The notes under the pieces were generated by a model that was not told the origin of the DNA, did no database searches, and saw only the letters and a list, made by a program, of their open reading frames with translations. From a candidate division KSB1 bacterium (GTDB taxonomy: Bacteria > Zhuqueibacterota > JdFR-76 > DREG01), in NCBI GenBank assembly GCA_022566355.1, contig JADFJB010000154.1:1-9150 (forward strand): 9,150 nucleotides of DNA, read 5' to 3'. A program made the translations under genes and the position numbers. Positions within the stretch are counted from its first letter, which is position 1. Each line of letters opens with the position of its first letter. This document shows positions 252 to 8,207 of this stretch, in pieces.

Positions 252-1949
252 CTATTTAACGGCTGGTTGAGGTGGTGTCAGCCAATTTATGGTATGAGCT
301 AGAATAATCACCCCTAAACAGCCAACGACATTATACCAGAGAAAAGATGTTATCTCGAAAATATGAAAAACAAACACTAGAGTTTCAGCAACTATTGCAG
401 CATAAAATGTAGCTGTTCCCTGAATTTTCTTAAAATAAAACGCAACTGCGAATATCCCCAATATGGTTCCATAAAAAAGAGATCCCAAGATATTAACGGC
501 CTCAATAAGTGAGCCAAGCCGGCTGGCATATTCCGCAAGCAAGATGGCATAAACACCCCATATTGCGGTAAAGACTTTAGAGGCGATCACATAATGCTTA
601 TCATTACCCTTCTTGTAGATCATGCGGCGATAAATATCAACAACTGTTGTGGAAGCCAAAGAATTTAGCTCTGCCGAAGTCGATGACATGGATGCGGCAA
701 ATATTGCTGCGATCACCAATCCCACCAATCCGACAGGCAAAAAAGTAGTTACAAATGTCAGAAAAATATAATTCGTGTCATTAGGATTCATTTCCGGATC
801 ATTCTGCTGCATGAGAGAAATAGCCGATTCCCGGATTTCTTTTGTTTTCCCTTCTGCCAGATTGAGATTGTTTTGCGCCTGGTCAATTGCCTCTTGGTCG
901 CTGTCATCCATCGCACTGATTAACTCTCTTATTCTCGTTTTCTTATATTCATGAGCTTTTTCGTATTCAACTTCCAATTCCTGGTAATCTGAAGCGTAGG
1001 CTGTGTTTTGAATTTTATTTATTTCCACAGAATTAAAAAATAAGGGAGGCTTTTCAAATTGATAAAACACAAACAACATAGCGCCAATAAGAAGAATGAA
1101 AAACTGCATCGGGACTTTAGCCAACCCATTAAAGATCAAACCAAAGCGACTTTCAGTGATCGAGGAACCAGTCAGGTATCTCTGTACCTGTGATTGATCT
1201 GTGCCAAAATAGGAGAGGTGCAGAAAAAGTCCGGCAATAATTCCCGACCAAATCGTATACCGATTATTCAAATCAAACGTAAAATCGATTGTATTAAACT
1301 TCCCCATTTTACCTGCCACAAATCCTGCATCCATTATTGAAATATCATCAGGGAGGAGATATAAGATCATAAAAAAAGCAGCAAACATACCAAACATAGC
1401 TATAAACATTTGGTGGAAATGGGTCCAGTTGACAGCCTTAGTGCCTCCTAAGGTTGTATAAACAATCACCAAAACACCGATTATAAAAGTGGTGATTTGT
1501 GTATTCCAACCCAATATAGTGGAAAGGATAATGGCCGGAGCGTAAATGGTAAGCCCAGCCGCCAATCCTCTTTGGATGAGAAAGAGTAGCGCTGCCAAAC
1601 CACGTGTTTTCAGGTCAAAACGATTTTCTAAATACTCATAAGCAGTGAAAACTTTTAGTTTGTGATAAATTGGAACTGCTGTAATGGAAATAATGATCAT
1701 TGCAATGGGAAGGCCGAAATAGAATTGGACAAAGCGCATACCGTCTACATAGGCCTGTCCGGGAGTTGAAAGGAACGTGATCGCGCTAGCTTGCGTTGCC
1801 ATGATGGATAGTGCAATTGTAGGCCAGCGCATGCGCCTGTTTGCGAGTAGGTAGTCCTCTATATTTTTACTACCCCGCCCTTTCCAGACGCCGTAAAGAA
1901 CAATGAAAAGCAGGGATGATATTAAAACAAACCAGTCTAGTGAGTGCAA
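252..1949 (-). CDS. Sodium/solute symporter (SSS/SLC5 family) with an extracytoplasmic charged insert
   Basis: This 565-residue inner-membrane protein is expected to import a small solute with Na+. Features typical of the SSS family are a first helix at about 6-22, GGTKAVNWTHFHQ at 168-180, TDQSQVQRYLTG at 250-261, and a helix at about 403-435 rich in small and hydroxyl residues (ASMSSTSAELNS). That helix matches the Na2-site helix of the LeuT fold. About a dozen or more hydrophobic segments are visible. Residues about 300-392 form a long polar insert, charged and heptad-like at 320-375, just before that helix. By analogy with vSGLT this is the extracytoplasmic loop between core helices 7 and 8. 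The start is TTG: an in-frame TAA lies at 1959-1961, there is no ATG between, and a later Met would remove helix 1. No Shine-Dalgarno sequence is present; the leader is A-rich. It lies 176 bp downstream of the deacetylase on the same strand, which suggests uptake of that enzyme's product. The substrate cannot be read from sequence. Confidence 0.9.
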   Translation of the reverse strand: MHSLDWFVLISSLLFIVLYGVWKGRGSKNIEDYLLANRRMRWPTIALSIMATQASAITFLSTPGQAYVDGMRFVQFYFGLPIAMIIISITAVPIYHKLKVFTAYEYLENRFDLKTRGLAALLFLIQRGLAAGLTIYAPAIILSTILGWNTQITTFIIGVLVIVYTTLGGTKAVNWTHFHQMFIAMFGMFAAFFMILYLLPDDISIMDAGFVAGKMGKFNTIDFTFDLNNRYTIWSGIIAGLFLHLSYFGTDQSQVQRYLTGSSITESRFGLIFNGLAKVPMQFFILLIGAMLFVFYQFEKPPLFFNSVEINKIQNTAYASDYQELEVEYEKAHEYKKTRIRELISAMDDSDQEAIDQAQNNLNLAEGKTKEIRESAISLMQQNDPEMNPNDTNYIFLTFVTTFLPVGLVGLVIAAIFAASMSSTSAELNSLASTTVVDIYRRMIYKKGNDKHYVIASKVFTAIWGVYAILLAEYASRLGSLIEAVNILGSLFYGTILGIFAVAFYFKKIQGTATFYAAIVAETLVFVFHIFEITSFLWYNVVGCLGVIILAHTINWLTPPQPAVK

Positions 1950-2101
1950 ATTTATATCTTATTTAGTTTGGAAATATTTAAGTTCAGTCTATAATAAAAA
2001 GCTAATCGAAGAATTTCATAAAAAGAGTAAATAAGATAATTAATATGACATGATTCAAAAGGACTAAAATATACCACTTATTCCAGCTTGAGAATATGGG
2101 G

Positions 2102-2119
2102 GGACGTTCTTCGACGTCC
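2102..2119 (-). other. Small stem-loop just after the deacetylase stop
   Basis: GGACGT (2102-2107) and ACGTCC (2114-2119) form a perfect 6-bp stem with a 6-nt loop, 6 bp beyond the TAA of the deacetylase gene at 2126-2128. On the minus strand the stem is followed by a C run, not a T run, so it lacks the tract of an intrinsic terminator. It could stabilise an mRNA end, mark a processing site before the symporter cistron, or be chance. Confidence 0.35.
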
Positions 2120-2125
2120 AAATTA

Positions 2126-4624
2126 TTAGTGGGTTCCACGGCCATTTTCCTTGCCTGCAGAAATCATATTAACAAAAAGCCGGTAAGCACCAGGTACACC
2201 AGCCGGCAGCTCCCGGAAAAAAGACAACCCTGTATAAATAAATATTCCGCTGCCATATTCAGTATAAATAATGCCTCCCAACTTATCACCTTCACCCGGA
2301 TCATGGCTGGAAATTGGCGCCTGGAAATTGGAGTCCCATTGATTCGCAAAGTAGAGCCCGCGTTCCTGAACCCAGCCATCGAAATCCGATTGAGTAATTT
2401 TATTAGGTGTATTCAATAGAGGATGGTCGGGAATTTCAAATTTTATCGGGGCATTTTCAACTGATACACGATCACGGGAAATTTGAAAAGGGAATGGTCC
2501 CAAATTATCAACAACCAATCCACGAGATGTATTATATTGAATAATGAGAACACCGCCTTTGTAAACAAAATCAAGCACTCTTGAGTAATGCTGTTTCAAT
2601 CGCGTCCGAGTATTAAATACTCGCACTCCCGCGATGATTGTATCATATCGCTTGAGATCAGCATTTTCCAAATCGTCATCAGAAAGCAGATCTACATGGT
2701 ACCCTAGTTGCTCAAGATATTTTGGCACCTCATCACCAGACCCCATAATGTAAGCGATGTGTTCCTCCCTTTTTGCCAAATCCAAACGAACTAGTTTGGC
2801 TTCCGCAGGTGGAAATAGTGTTTGAATTGAAATATGAGGATATTGAATTCGTAAAAATCCATTTGAAAGCCTTTTTCCATCAACTGTCGCTTCAGCTGTT
2901 AGAATTCCGGAAGAAGATATTTCCGGTGGCCGCAGAGTAAAATAAAACAAACGCTCATCATCTTTTTTCTCTAAGGAAAAGGATTGTGAAGATGGCTCAA
3001 CGCGCCAACCGCTTGGAGTTTGTAATTGGAGTTGACCAGAGACAGCATCTTTGCCAGCTTTGACTCGCAGTCCAATTTTCCTGGAGTCATCATTCCCAAA
3101 TACATAAAGGTTTTCCTCCAAAATCAGAGCGACTTCAGGGATTATCTCCAAAGTTCTGTACTGTTCTCCATTCACCCGATCCGTCCATCTATATAAAACA
3201 GGACTTTCAAAGATAAAACTTTGACCATCAATTTGAACTACAAATTGGACTTCCATAGCAGGTAAATTTTCCGGCTGACCAATTAATTTCTGATCTTTCA
3301 CATTAAATAATCCCAAACTTGATTTAGAACGCAACCAGTATGGGTGAGTCAATTCGAAATCTTCAGGAATCGTTACTGACAACTTCTGTTGGAATGGTTG
3401 GTTATAACTTAAGTTTTGACTATTGACTAATTCTTCTGTTTGATATGGAGTGGTAATTTTTTCTAAAAGTACTGGGTAATGAGAGCGATTGATGACATTA
3501 ACTGTAAGATTTGCTTCACTCCCTGGTGTGTAAGAATATTTCTCGGCTATAGCCTCTGTCCAAAGACCAAGACTGGAACGGATAATCTCTTTGAGCTCTT
3601 TTTGTTTCTGATTTACCCAATAACTTTGCGGTAGTGTTAATATTTTTTTATAAACTTTGACGAGAGAAGGAATAGTAGCTGTAGGATCATCGTGTTGAAA
3701 AGATGCAATTGCTTCTGTGATCATAGTCCCGATCTCTTTTCCGCCTTCTACTCTATTCCATGTCAGATCCACACCATCAAAAAGATCATTTTCAGCTGGC
3801 GTGCCTGCGGTATGCTGAAAACTATTTATAGATTGCCCCCTGCGACCTCTCGATCCGAATCCCTGGCTTTTATGCATACTCCTGCTTTCGGCAGCGATCT
3901 CGGTGTAGGATTTTCCCAGGAATGCATTATACTCACCTACATCAACGCTGATTAAATCAGAAGTATTTGTATCGGAACCAGTTCTATTCCTGCGCCAGGC
4001 ATTCCATATAATTCTCTTGGGTTGCCAAGGAGAGACTAATTTTAATTGTTCCGAATATTGATTGGGATCGTTAGCAGCATGAAATGCTTCTTGAGCTAAA
4101 ATTGCAGATGCGCGGTGATGACCATGACCACCCATTTCGGCCGTAAATCGCGTAATGATCACATCCGGGCGAAATGAACGAATGATCCAAACCATATCCG
4201 AAACCACTTCATCTCTTCCCCAAATTCGGATGGCTTCTTCGGAAGATTTCGAATATCCAAAATCAATAGCACGAGTAAAAAATTGCTCGGCTCCATCCAA
4301 TTTTCGGGCAGCAACCAATTCCTGGGTTCGGATTACACTCATCAAAGCACCCTTTTCTGTTCCAATCAGATTCTGGCCGCCACCTCCGCGAGTCGTAGAT
4401 AAATAAGCAGTTCTAACCAGCCGACCACTGGATAAATATGAGAGTAGAGCTGTATTTTCGTCATCAGGATGAGCAGCTACCATCAGGACACTGCCTAAGA
4501 CATTCAGCTTTCTCAATGCCAATTCCAGCTCGGCCGAATTCATGATCCGAGTTGGTTGAGACAACAAAACTGAATGATTAAGAATGAATACTAATATCAA
4601 ACTAATTTTTAATATTTTTCTCAT
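2126..4624 (-). CDS. Exported PIG-L/LmbE-family deacetylase with C-terminal amidotransferase-like domain
   Basis: Members of this family are Zn-dependent hydrolases that remove N-acetyl groups from GlcNAc-like substrates. The 832-residue protein starts with a signal peptide (about 1-23, MRKILK then a hydrophobic stretch, likely cleaved near LLSQP). The PIG-L domain covers about 45-260. AHPDDE at 51-56 supplies Zn ligands H52 and D55 and the presumed base D54. GGGGQN lies at 80-85, and HGHH at 167-170 supplies the third ligand, probably H170. Residues about 365-600 look like beta-sandwich (NEW3-like) domains. Residues about 620-830 resemble a class I glutamine-amidotransferase (ThuA-like) fold, with GSGDEVPKYLEQLG and a KGGVLIIQYNTS strand-turn, but no nucleophilic cysteine. 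I find no cysteine in the whole protein, consistent with export. It is far larger than the cytosolic BshB/MshB enzymes (about 230-300 residues), so a bacillithiol role is not implied. The ATG has a GGAG six bases upstream. It is followed by the symporter. The substrate is unknown. Confidence 0.9.
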   Translation of the reverse strand: MRKILKISLILVFILNHSVLLSQPTRIMNSAELELALRKLNVLGSVLMVAAHPDDENTALLSYLSSGRLVRTAYLSTTRGGGGQNLIGTEKGALMSVIRTQELVAARKLDGAEQFFTRAIDFGYSKSSEEAIRIWGRDEVVSDMVWIIRSFRPDVIITRFTAEMGGHGHHRASAILAQEAFHAANDPNQYSEQLKLVSPWQPKRIIWNAWRRNRTGSDTNTSDLISVDVGEYNAFLGKSYTEIAAESRSMHKSQGFGSRGRRGQSINSFQHTAGTPAENDLFDGVDLTWNRVEGGKEIGTMITEAIASFQHDDPTATIPSLVKVYKKILTLPQSYWVNQKQKELKEIIRSSLGLWTEAIAEKYSYTPGSEANLTVNVINRSHYPVLLEKITTPYQTEELVNSQNLSYNQPFQQKLSVTIPEDFELTHPYWLRSKSSLGLFNVKDQKLIGQPENLPAMEVQFVVQIDGQSFIFESPVLYRWTDRVNGEQYRTLEIIPEVALILEENLYVFGNDDSRKIGLRVKAGKDAVSGQLQLQTPSGWRVEPSSQSFSLEKKDDERLFYFTLRPPEISSSGILTAEATVDGKRLSNGFLRIQYPHISIQTLFPPAEAKLVRLDLAKREEHIAYIMGSGDEVPKYLEQLGYHVDLLSDDDLENADLKRYDTIIAGVRVFNTRTRLKQHYSRVLDFVYKGGVLIIQYNTSRGLVVDNLGPFPFQISRDRVSVENAPIKFEIPDHPLLNTPNKITQSDFDGWVQERGLYFANQWDSNFQAPISSHDPGEGDKLGGIIYTEYGSGIFIYTGLSFFRELPAGVPGAYRLFVNMISAGKENGRGTH

Positions 4625-4630
4625 GCGTTA

Positions 4631-4634
4631 CTCC
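4631..4634 (-). promoter_or_regulatory. Shine-Dalgarno site for the deacetylase gene
   Basis: The minus strand reads GGAG followed by six bases (TAACGC) and then the ATG at 4624. This is a good anti-16S match at normal spacing and supports the chosen start, which also gives a complete signal peptide. It contrasts with the symporter gene downstream, which has no such site. Confidence 0.65.
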
Positions 4635-4640
4635 ATATAT

Positions 4641-4740
4641 CACAAAGATCACTAAGAATATACATATTATGCACTAAGATCAAAGAGAAAAAGTAAGTAC
4701 CTTAATGAATTTTTGTGTCTACTTTTGGGTCTTTTGTGGT
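4641..4740. repeat. Degenerate inverted repeat upstream of the deacetylase gene
   Basis: The left arm CACAAAGATCACTAAG (4641-4656) pairs imperfectly with CTTAATGAATTTTTGTG (4701-4717). A second partial copy of the left arm, GCACTAAGATCAAAGAG, lies between them at 4671-4687. The right side continues into CTTTTGTGGTTAA (about 4731-4743). The wording TTTGTG...CTTTTGTGGTTAA resembles a dispersed intergenic sequence that I recall from many bacterial genomes; that is memory, not a search. It occupies the expected leader or promoter region of the deacetylase gene. Confidence 0.4.
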
Positions 4741-5013
4741 TAAAATATTTTTTTCCGGTTCTAAGTGAATTCTCGTTTATCAATCAATCGAAAATACAAA
4801 TAAAACTTATACGAACTCAACAATGGTTGAAGTTTCATTTATTCCAAAATAAAGTAAAGATTAATAAAACAGAATTTTTCAAATTGGCAAATAAAATCTT
4901 CTTAAATCTTAAAATATTATTGTTTCCTTCATTTATATTGATATTTGGTAACTATTCAGCCTCTAAGTCTCAAAGGCTCTAAATTCATATTATTTTTTAA
5001 TGCTTTTTTTTAA

Positions 5014-5118
5014 CTGTTCGGCTATTGGCATTTAATCCCAACAGAAGATATAAAAGTGATTATGGATGAGTTAAACAAAGAACAAAAAACGATCAATAAT
5101 CTCATCAAAGTAAGCTAA
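5014..5118 (+). pseudogene. Possible remnant of a plus-strand gene end
   Basis: Between a TAA at 5011-5013 and a TAA at 5116-5118 the plus strand is open for 34 codons. The second part (from about 5038) reads PTEDIKVIMDELNKEQK and on to a stop. It has a normal amino-acid mix, acidic/basic alternation and predicted helix, unlike the Phe/Asn/Lys-rich noise around it. An ATG at 5062 would give an 18-residue peptide, but I see no ribosome-binding site. It could be the decayed 3' end of a lost gene, or chance. Confidence 0.2.
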
Positions 5119-5188
5119 GGGCCAGCAGCCTATGGTTGAAAAGTTACGAATATTTGATATTTTGAAAATTCAGATTTATTTGAAATTT

Positions 5189-6637
5189 CTAAACTTTTCT
5201 CTCCTTCCATTTACCTCTTCGAAAAAGGATAATTCCAGCTATACCCAGCAACGACTCTGCTACAACTATCGCAATAAATACTCCCAATTCGCCAAACCCA
5301 AATTCCAATGCAAGGGCATAAGCCACTGGAATTTCAAACAGCCAGAAGCAGAAAAAATTTATTTTTGTCGGAGTTGCTGTATCACCAGCCCCGTTAAATG
5401 CCTGAATCATAATCATGCCATAGCCATAGAACAGATAACCATAACTAATCACTCGTAAACATTCCGAACCAATTGCGATAACTCGCTCTTCATCCGTAAA
5501 GATACGCACTAAGAATTCAGGAAATGTGATAAAAACGATCGCAATTAAACCCAGGAAAACCATGTTTATAAATGCTGATATCCATACCGATTTTTCTGCC
5601 CGGTCTGGTTTCTTTGCGCCTAAGTTCTGACCAACCAATGTTGCAGCTGCATTACTCATACCCCAAGAGGGCAATATGGAAAAAATAATGATGCGAACAG
5701 CTATTGTGTATCCTGCCAAGGCCTCGCTGCCAAAAACAGCCATGATGCGCACTAATCCAATCCAACTAGAGGTTGCGATGATGAATTGTCCAATGCCGCC
5801 TAAAGATAGTCGTAGCAATCGTTTCATCACATCAATTTGGATTTTCATATGTTTCCTGGCAATATGAATTCTGCCCGATTTACGCAGTAGGGTATAAATT
5901 TGGTACACCACCCCGATTCCACGTCCAATGGATGTGGCAATCGCAGCACCTTTTATACCGAGTTCGGGGAATGGCCCGAGGCCAAAAATCAGGCATGGAT
6001 CCAGAATAATGTTAATGATGTTAGCCAACCATAATGCCCGCATGGCGACAGCCGCATCGCCTACGCCACGGAAGATCGCATTGTTGATAAAGATCAACAT
6101 GATCACGGCATTGGTGCTAAGCATGATAGCCGTGTACATAAACCCGGAACTGATTATTGCTTGTGATGCTCCCATTAATTGAAGTAACTCTGGAGCAAAG
6201 AAAATCCCCAAAAACATGATGGGAGTTGACACCAGGAATCCCACCACTATGGCCTGAACTGCTGCAACTGAAGCGCCTTCGGAATCTTTCTCTCCAGTCC
6301 TTCGCGCAACAATTGCAGTCGCAGCCATACTAAGACCGATTCCGATGGCATAAACAATTGTTATCATTGACTCGGTGAGCCCAACTGTTGCGACAGCATC
6401 CGAACCAAGTTTTGATACGAAAAATATATCTACAACGGCAAAAATCGATTCCATCATCAATTCCAGTACCATTGGAATGGAGAGCAGTAGAATGGCTCTG
6501 CCAATACTTCCCTTTGTAAAATCTCTTTGGGTACCAGCTATGGATTCACGGACATCCTGCCAAAGTTGAGATATTTTCCAATTCGATTCACTCGATGATT
6601 CTGATTTTAAAGATTGATCTTGTTCAATTTGGCTCAT
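5189..6637 (-). CDS. MATE family multidrug/metabolite efflux transporter
   Basis: This 482-residue inner-membrane antiporter is expected to expel cationic drugs or metabolites in exchange for Na+ or H+. Two homologous MatE halves are visible. The first, about 46-260, opens [17 protein letters not shown] and contains FRGVGDA (189-195) and DPCLIFG (213-219). The second, about 275-475, contains [13 protein letters not shown] (336-348) and [11 protein letters not shown] (414-424). These paired GxGD signatures and about twelve hydrophobic segments are diagnostic. The length fits the family, with a polar N-terminal tail of about 42 residues before the first helix. The ATG at 6637 is preceded by GGAAAG (6645-6650) at 7-nt spacing. 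It seems to be a single gene: 520 bp separate it from SixA and 564 bp from the deacetylase. The substrate cannot be predicted. The inverted repeat at 6749-6817 may control it. Confidence 0.93.
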
Positions 6638-8134: not shown

Positions 8135-8193
8135 AATAAGACCCTTCAGGGTAAATAAGAGCCTTCAGGGTTAAATAAGACCTCTCAGGTTTT
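8135..8193 (+). repeat. Three tandem ~20-bp repeats upstream of the TfoX-like gene
   Basis: Three direct copies follow one another: 8135-8153, 8154-8173 and 8174-8193. Each begins AATAAGA and carries a CCT...TCAGG core: CCCTTCAGGG, GCCTTCAGGG and CCTCTCAGG. The core is itself a small inverted repeat. Copies 1 and 2 are nearly identical, while copy 3 differs and forms the left arm of the hairpin at 8181-8207. The array ends 29 bp before the start codon at 8223. Confidence 0.65.
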
Positions 8194-8207
8194 AAAAACC
8201 TGAGAGG
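8181..8207 (+). promoter_or_regulatory. Perfect 13-bp hairpin directly before the TfoX-like gene
   Basis: CCTCTCAGGTTTT (8181-8193) and AAAACCTGAGAGG (8195-8207) are exactly complementary around one A, giving a strong stem (in RNA a slightly larger loop). It lies 15 bp before the ATG and 3 bp before the AGGAAA ribosome-binding site, so it should sit in the 5' untranslated region if transcription starts upstream. It could limit access to the start site, stabilise the transcript, or be a mobile palindromic repeat that landed there. No T run follows, so it is not a typical terminator. Confidence 0.55.

Follow-up and report, generated by a model that had tools for sequence, protein, structure and literature searches.

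The window analysed here, a whole contig of 9,150 bases from a source genome of 4.6 Mb in 213 contigs, carries three genes whose products are a large putative deacetylase of the PIG-L family, a microprotein and an SSS symporter. Each of the three is conserved as a coding sequence; they keep the same order and orientation and are found together in genomes even where they are unlinked, and the catalytic residues of the enzyme and the Na2 residues of the symporter are intact. We lean, with slightly more belief than doubt, towards the view that they form a conserved uptake unit made up of a periplasmic deacetylase, an SSS importer and a microprotein subunit, which imports a probably anionic product. 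The exported PIG-L enzyme would act in the periplasm and free an amide of its acetyl (acyl) group, the symporter would import the product of deacetylation, probably a carboxylate-bearing anion, by Na+ symport, and the single-TM microprotein of 35-50 aa would assemble with the symporter as an accessory subunit, a MAP17-like helper. This functional account is plausible, and it proposes one testable role for both an enzyme subfamily and a transporter that have so far been orphans.

The unit is read from the minus strand in the order PIG-L (4624-2126), microprotein (2145-2002) and SSS (1949-252). An earlier sequence-only reading had noticed an 832-residue PIG-L protein followed on the same strand by an SSS symporter, and gene coordinates together with matches to PF02585, PF00474 and TIGR00813 bear this out. 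The two-gene unit that it proposed did not stand, since the 47-aa ORF occupying the 176-nt gap between the PIG-L and SSS genes had been missed. The three-gene version combines known protein families with a microprotein family that is so far undescribed. Beyond the SSS gene the window extends for 251 nt, and a search of it for Rfam families and tRNA found none. Its features are as follows.

2126..4624, minus strand: PIG-L N-deacetylase family protein, large, putatively exported, 832 aa, first in the unit (PF02585, 3.2e-13; AF2 model; full-length homologues)
4559..4624, minus strand: putative Sec signal peptide, residues 1-22, ending ...VLLS (hydrophobic N-terminus; model helix 2-16)
3761..4504, minus strand: PIG-L catalytic domain, residues 41-288 (superposition on MshB 4ewl; presumed Zn/catalytic residues H52, D54, D55, H167 and H170 invariant)
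2825..3568, minus strand: beta-sandwich region, residues 353-600, weakly NEW3/NPCBM-associated-like (model strands; PF10633 E=0.022, below cut-off)
2141..2767, minus strand: C-terminal domain with a class I glutamine-amidotransferase/ThuA-like fold, residues 620-828 (fold matches 2gk3, 4jqs)
2002..2145, minus strand: microprotein of 47 aa with a single predicted TM helix and a PP..xSW...Y motif (profile searches; pN/pS)
252..1949, minus strand: Na+/solute symporter of the SSS (SLC5-type) family, 565 aa, starting with TTG (PF00474, TIGR00813)
780..1043, minus strand: 88-aa insertion of the symporter, residues 303-390, predicted helical hairpin (gap in the SiaT alignment; AF2; length in 48 sequences)
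1569..1571, minus strand: codon of symporter R127, an arginine of TM3 (invariant in 48/48 sequences)

Linkage and Co-Occurrence of the Three Genes

Among the 80 best PIG-L homologues on contigs of one genome per species, a set biased towards near relatives and Flavobacterium, 51 have an SSS gene downstream on the same strand. Because of this bias, the survey was repeated on an even draw of 138 genomes, taken from the phylum to which one of the hosts belongs (Dyadobacter, L101/G108). PIG-L was present in 41 of these genomes, SSS in 53 and both in 38 (Fisher p=2.9e-18, kinship ignored), and in 34 of the 41 PIG-L genomes SSS was the next gene downstream in the same orientation, usually after 100-230 nt. 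The chance that an SSS gene comes next is estimated at about 1% (about 26 loose SSS candidates against roughly 4,000 genes), and the pairing is therefore far above chance. The sequence-only reading had named the pairing as recurrent in Bacteroidota and had proposed a survey in which SSS neighbours no commoner than chance would count against it; the claim withstands these numbers, and the pairing was seen repeatedly in Bacteroidota, in Ignavibacteria, in the phylum of the window and in some Acidobacteriota MAGs. The literature searched, on PIG-L paired with a symporter and on LmbE, held no relevant description of the pair, although 38 of the 138 genomes drawn from the Dyadobacter phylum have both genes.

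Of the 82 genomes of the window's own phylum, 7 have an SSS orthologue, and every one of these 7 has PIG-L too (p=4.5e-7, kinship ignored). SSS adjoins PIG-L in these genomes wherever the contig permits judgement, and the microprotein is present in all seven. The order- and class-level surveys comprised 7 genomes only. Three other PIG-L genes of the source genome served as controls, and none has an SSS gene within 1.5 kb flanks. One large PIG-L reading frame of the source genome other than that of the window (G000:C65:3882-4181, L004), an open frame of 778 aa, has no SSS neighbour within the stretch seen.

PIG-L stands alone in 27 genomes. SSS is located elsewhere in 21 of them, and a close SSS is lacking in the other 6, as it is in 3 of the 41 PIG-L genomes of the even draw. 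Since an SSS gene unlinked from PIG-L usually retains its microprotein, microprotein and SSS are the tighter pair and PIG-L is their partner gene. The deacetylase is not required by every such transporter, because a side clade of SSS proteins (42-46% identity) has the microprotein and the hairpin and no close PIG-L. At one locus (L215:1157-4828), genes for a DUF2911 protein, PIG-L and the microprotein are followed by a C-terminal remnant of SSS only; the symporter gene has apparently decayed there, and PIG-L can thus outlive its transporter.

The genes might also be neighbours kept by conservation of the chromosome, with no shared function, which we find hardly credible. Where PIG-L and SSS are linked, the pairwise identities of the two proteins correlate (r=0.94), a correlation that shared vertical descent also predicts and much of which vertical inheritance accounts for; close relatives, moreover, dominate the 80-locus set. 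However, the PIG-L/microprotein/SSS order is constant across several phyla while the flanking genes vary, and co-occurrence persists for unlinked genes.

The Microprotein

The ORF at 2145-2002 encodes MAVEPTNNLDVEERPPIFSSWNKWYILVLLNHVILIILFTLFMKFFD. It overlaps the end of the PIG-L gene by 20 nt, and this overlap suggests translational coupling. At homologous loci the gap between PIG-L and SSS is typically 100-250 nt and holds an ORF of 35-50 aa, short enough to escape ordinary gene calling. The encoded proteins have one hydrophobic helix, a strictly conserved Trp and, at the fourth residue after this Trp, a near-invariant Tyr. When a profile built from 29 members was run over 1.8 Mb of loci, 87 of the 94 orthologous SSS genes had a match directly upstream; on-target matches scored 25-79 bits with one exception, the top unrelated match 11.5 bits. 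Three extra matches (L027, L170 and L215) came from the same neighbourhoods, with SSS displaced or lost. In the 82 genomes of the window's own phylum the profile retrieved exactly the 7 SSS genomes (E<=1.2e-8; next match 0.013), 4 of which had no member in the profile. Microprotein genes of close Flavobacterium relatives differ mostly at synonymous sites (pN 0.060, pS 0.598, ratio about 0.1), and we therefore conclude that the microprotein is a real gene under purifying selection. Five microproteins compared with Pfam and NCBIfam gave no credible match at E<=1 and none above any cut-off, and the family appears to be so far undescribed.

MAP17 is a small single-TM partner of human SGLT1 and SGLT2 that is essential for SGLT2 (PMC9616851). 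The layout seen here is alike in that an SLC5 carrier would have a small protein with one TM as its partner. The analogy is one of layout, with no homology claimed; the microprotein is bacterial, is 35-50 aa long and has another motif. How a single-TM microprotein aids a carrier of the SLC5 type might be studied here in a simple bacterial model; the counterpart would be MAP17 with SGLT2, a drug target. Predicted small subunits of bacterial SSS carriers include DUF485, found with acetate permease, and DUF4212/TIGR03647, found with TIGR03648. Like the microprotein, these are small membrane proteins encoded beside an SSS gene, but the microprotein is shorter, has a single TM and shows no credible match to a Pfam or NCBIfam family.

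The microprotein is absent from two small genomes of 2.4-2.6 Mb (L211 and L212), in which a DUF2911 gene precedes PIG-L and SSS genes that overlap by 4 nt, an arrangement that looks like a compacted operon. At seven other loci (L084, L103, L106, L216, L218, L219 and L224; hosts include Daejeonella and Chitinophaga), a second small Gly-rich membrane protein of 50-70 aa, probably with two TM (for example, MSKKHQQHRPRLRIAAIFCIILGLLIGFSIKRVQVGLVIGIALGLLTGSMW...), is encoded between PIG-L and the microprotein.

The Putative Deacetylase

The PIG-L gene starts with ATG at 4624, and its stop ends at 2126. Its product belongs to the PIG-L superfamily by its match to PF02585 (E=3.2e-13, 50.7 bits against a gathering cut-off of 28.2). 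H52, D54, D55, H167 and H170, which make up the AHPDDE motif and the distal His metal ligand, are invariant among 62 PIG-L sequences; by analogy with MshB, H52, D55 and H170 presumably form the metal site and D54 is the presumed base. The AF2 model (mean pLDDT 90.3) contains, in this order, an N-terminal hydrophobic helix, the PIG-L domain, a helical and beta-sandwich middle part and a C-terminal ThuA/amidotransferase-like fold. At the N-terminus, a helix at residues 2-16 is followed by low pLDDT at 18-22 and by Q23, which is almost invariant in the homologue alignment. Such an N-terminus, and the SQ/AQ-type cleavage region of homologues, are what one would expect of an exported protein.

The PIG-L domain (residues 41-288) was superposed on MshB 4ewl with Z 22.9 and an rmsd of 3.1 A over 228 aligned residues, and its fold also matches diacetylchitobiose deacetylase (Z about 20) and BshB (Z 19.5). 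The fold of the C-terminal domain matches 2gk3 (Z 17.4) and the ThuA-like 4jqs (Z 15.5). Since there is no Cys at its presumed nucleophile position (IIQYNTS), this amidotransferase-like domain is probably non-catalytic. The protein shares its catalytic fold and AHPDDE...H..H residues with MshB, Mca, BshB and diacetylchitobiose deacetylase. Those enzymes are 220-300 aa long, whereas the protein studied here has 832 aa, is putatively exported and, unlike them, has beta-sandwich and amidotransferase-like C-terminal domains.

No thiol-cofactor equivalog cut-off was reached by the PIG-L protein (MshB, 26.9 bits against 224; Mca, 42.5 against 277; BshB1, 20.5 against 182). A role in bacillithiol biosynthesis was rejected, the BshB1-like gene of the source genome adjoining bshC on another contig; the apparent export of PIG-L also disfavours it. 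The protein could instead be an external amidase of bacillithiol-type thiol conjugates, with the symporter salvaging a glucosaminyl-malate or cysteine-conjugate product. We regard this as quite improbable. Mycothiol conjugate amidase Mca is the top NCBIfam partial match of PIG-L, though at 42.5 bits it stays far under its cut-off, and glucosaminyl-malate is anionic, in agreement with the arginine R127 of the symporter. A bshC match was obtained for 11 of the 13 genomes of the window's own phylum that have PIG-L and for 29 of the 69 that do not (p=0.006), an association that is loose and confounded by lineage and lifestyle; in G066, a genome 92% complete, the unit is present and a bshC match is absent. 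The separate bshB1-like gene beside bshC in the source genome also speaks against this role, as does the fact that known bacillithiol chemistry is cytoplasmic.

The Symporter

The SSS gene starts with TTG at 1949, and its stop ends at 252. The TTG codon is preceded by an in-frame stop, and the residue aligns with the start of homologues. Family membership follows from matches to PF00474 (E=1.2e-36, 126.9 bits against a cut-off of 22.8) and TIGR00813 (229.7 against 184), and the AF2 model, with a mean pLDDT of 85.5, has the SSS fold. The nearest solved structures are SiaT, SMVT, SMCT1 and NIS, and by fold SiaT, SMCT1, SGLT2 and NIS; SiaT (5nv9) is the best solved relative both by sequence (E=9e-46) and by fold. 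Like SiaT, SMCT1, SMVT and NIS, the protein is a LeuT-fold symporter.

Residues were compared among 48 orthologues, with L156 excluded. S422 and S423 align with Ser342 and Ser343 of the SiaT Na2 site in TM8 and are Ser in 41/48 and 47/48 sequences, respectively; the Na2 site is thus kept. S55 and T58 correspond to SiaT Ser60 and Thr63, ligands of the sialic acid carboxylate; the two proteins thus share this Ser/Thr pair as well as the serines of the Na2 site. SiaT Arg135, also a carboxylate ligand, aligns with A130; the symporter has instead R127 of TM3, invariant in 48/48 orthologues, three residues earlier or about one helical turn away. The match of S55 and T58 to carboxylate ligands and the invariance of R127 are a hint, and no more than that, of an anionic, carboxylate-bearing substrate. 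Assignment to SiaT itself was rejected, the pair that binds Neu5Ac not being kept (Arg135 of TM3 replaced by A130, Gln82 of TM2 by Y77).

What sets the symporter apart from SiaT, SMCT1, SMVT and NIS is a predicted 88-aa helical hairpin in EL4, along with its own candidate microprotein partner. Residues 303-390 form an insertion relative to SiaT (alignment gap at 304/311) between TM7 and TM8, modelled as two helices, 319-348 and 352-383, of about 30 residues each, with AF2 pLDDT >90 for most of the insertion. The insertion is predicted to be a helical hairpin on the external side. Its length is near-constant in the 48 orthologues and slightly shorter, 77-80 residues, in SSS relatives without a close PIG-L. 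As such relatives share the hairpin, the notion that it is a docking site specific to PIG-L is weakened. One can also imagine a hydrolase-coupled importer, in which the microprotein would be a regular part of the SSS protein and the hairpin would dock the periplasmic deacetylase or receive its product, making the whole one machine for an acylated anionic compound; we hold this for possible, if doubtful.

Neighbouring Genes

No sugar-catabolic or SusC/D family recurs beside the unit in the neighbourhoods of the loci. This would suit an enzyme that modifies or remodels the envelope (peptidoglycan or a surface glycan), with the symporter recovering acetate or supplying a precursor, in the service of envelope upkeep and not of nutrition. 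Acetate would be the one certain product of a deacetylase, the monocarboxylate carrier SMCT1 is among the closest solved relatives of the symporter, and the unit behaves as a single-copy, vertically inherited gene set. Yet the microprotein has no match to DUF485, the known partner family of acetate permease, and the big external hairpin seems elaborate for acetate alone. We consider this role unlikely and prefer the uptake unit with a probably anionic product.

Of the 80 PIG-L loci, 35 also carry a DUF2911 (PF11138) gene, which in every case lies downstream and in the opposite orientation; the upstream stretches, of up to 8 kb, contained none. Directly upstream of PIG-L and on its strand, DUF2911 is found in three genomes of the window's own phylum and at L211, L212 and L215. 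In that phylum it is present in 7/7 SSS genomes versus 16/75 others (p=6e-5, kinship ignored), and the DUF2911 genes of the source genome are on contigs other than the window. No text relevant to DUF2911 function was found in the literature searched. Among the loci at which DUF2911 was seen beside PIG-L/SSS (L038, L041, L046, L049, L094, L105, L211, L212, L215 and others), the gene is usually convergent, 3' of SSS, and sometimes directly 5' of PIG-L, whose start it touches in L215.

In the window, a strong palindrome, CCTCTCAGGTTTTTAAAACCTGAGAGG, at 8181-8207, just outside a TfoX-like gene, is followed by a T-rich stretch; it is terminator-like and without an Rfam match. A MATE efflux gene (5189-6637) lies upstream of PIG-L on the same strand, separated from it by an AT-rich stretch (4625-5188). 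A MATE gene occupies the same place (L032) in G005, the only relative of the same family with PIG-L.
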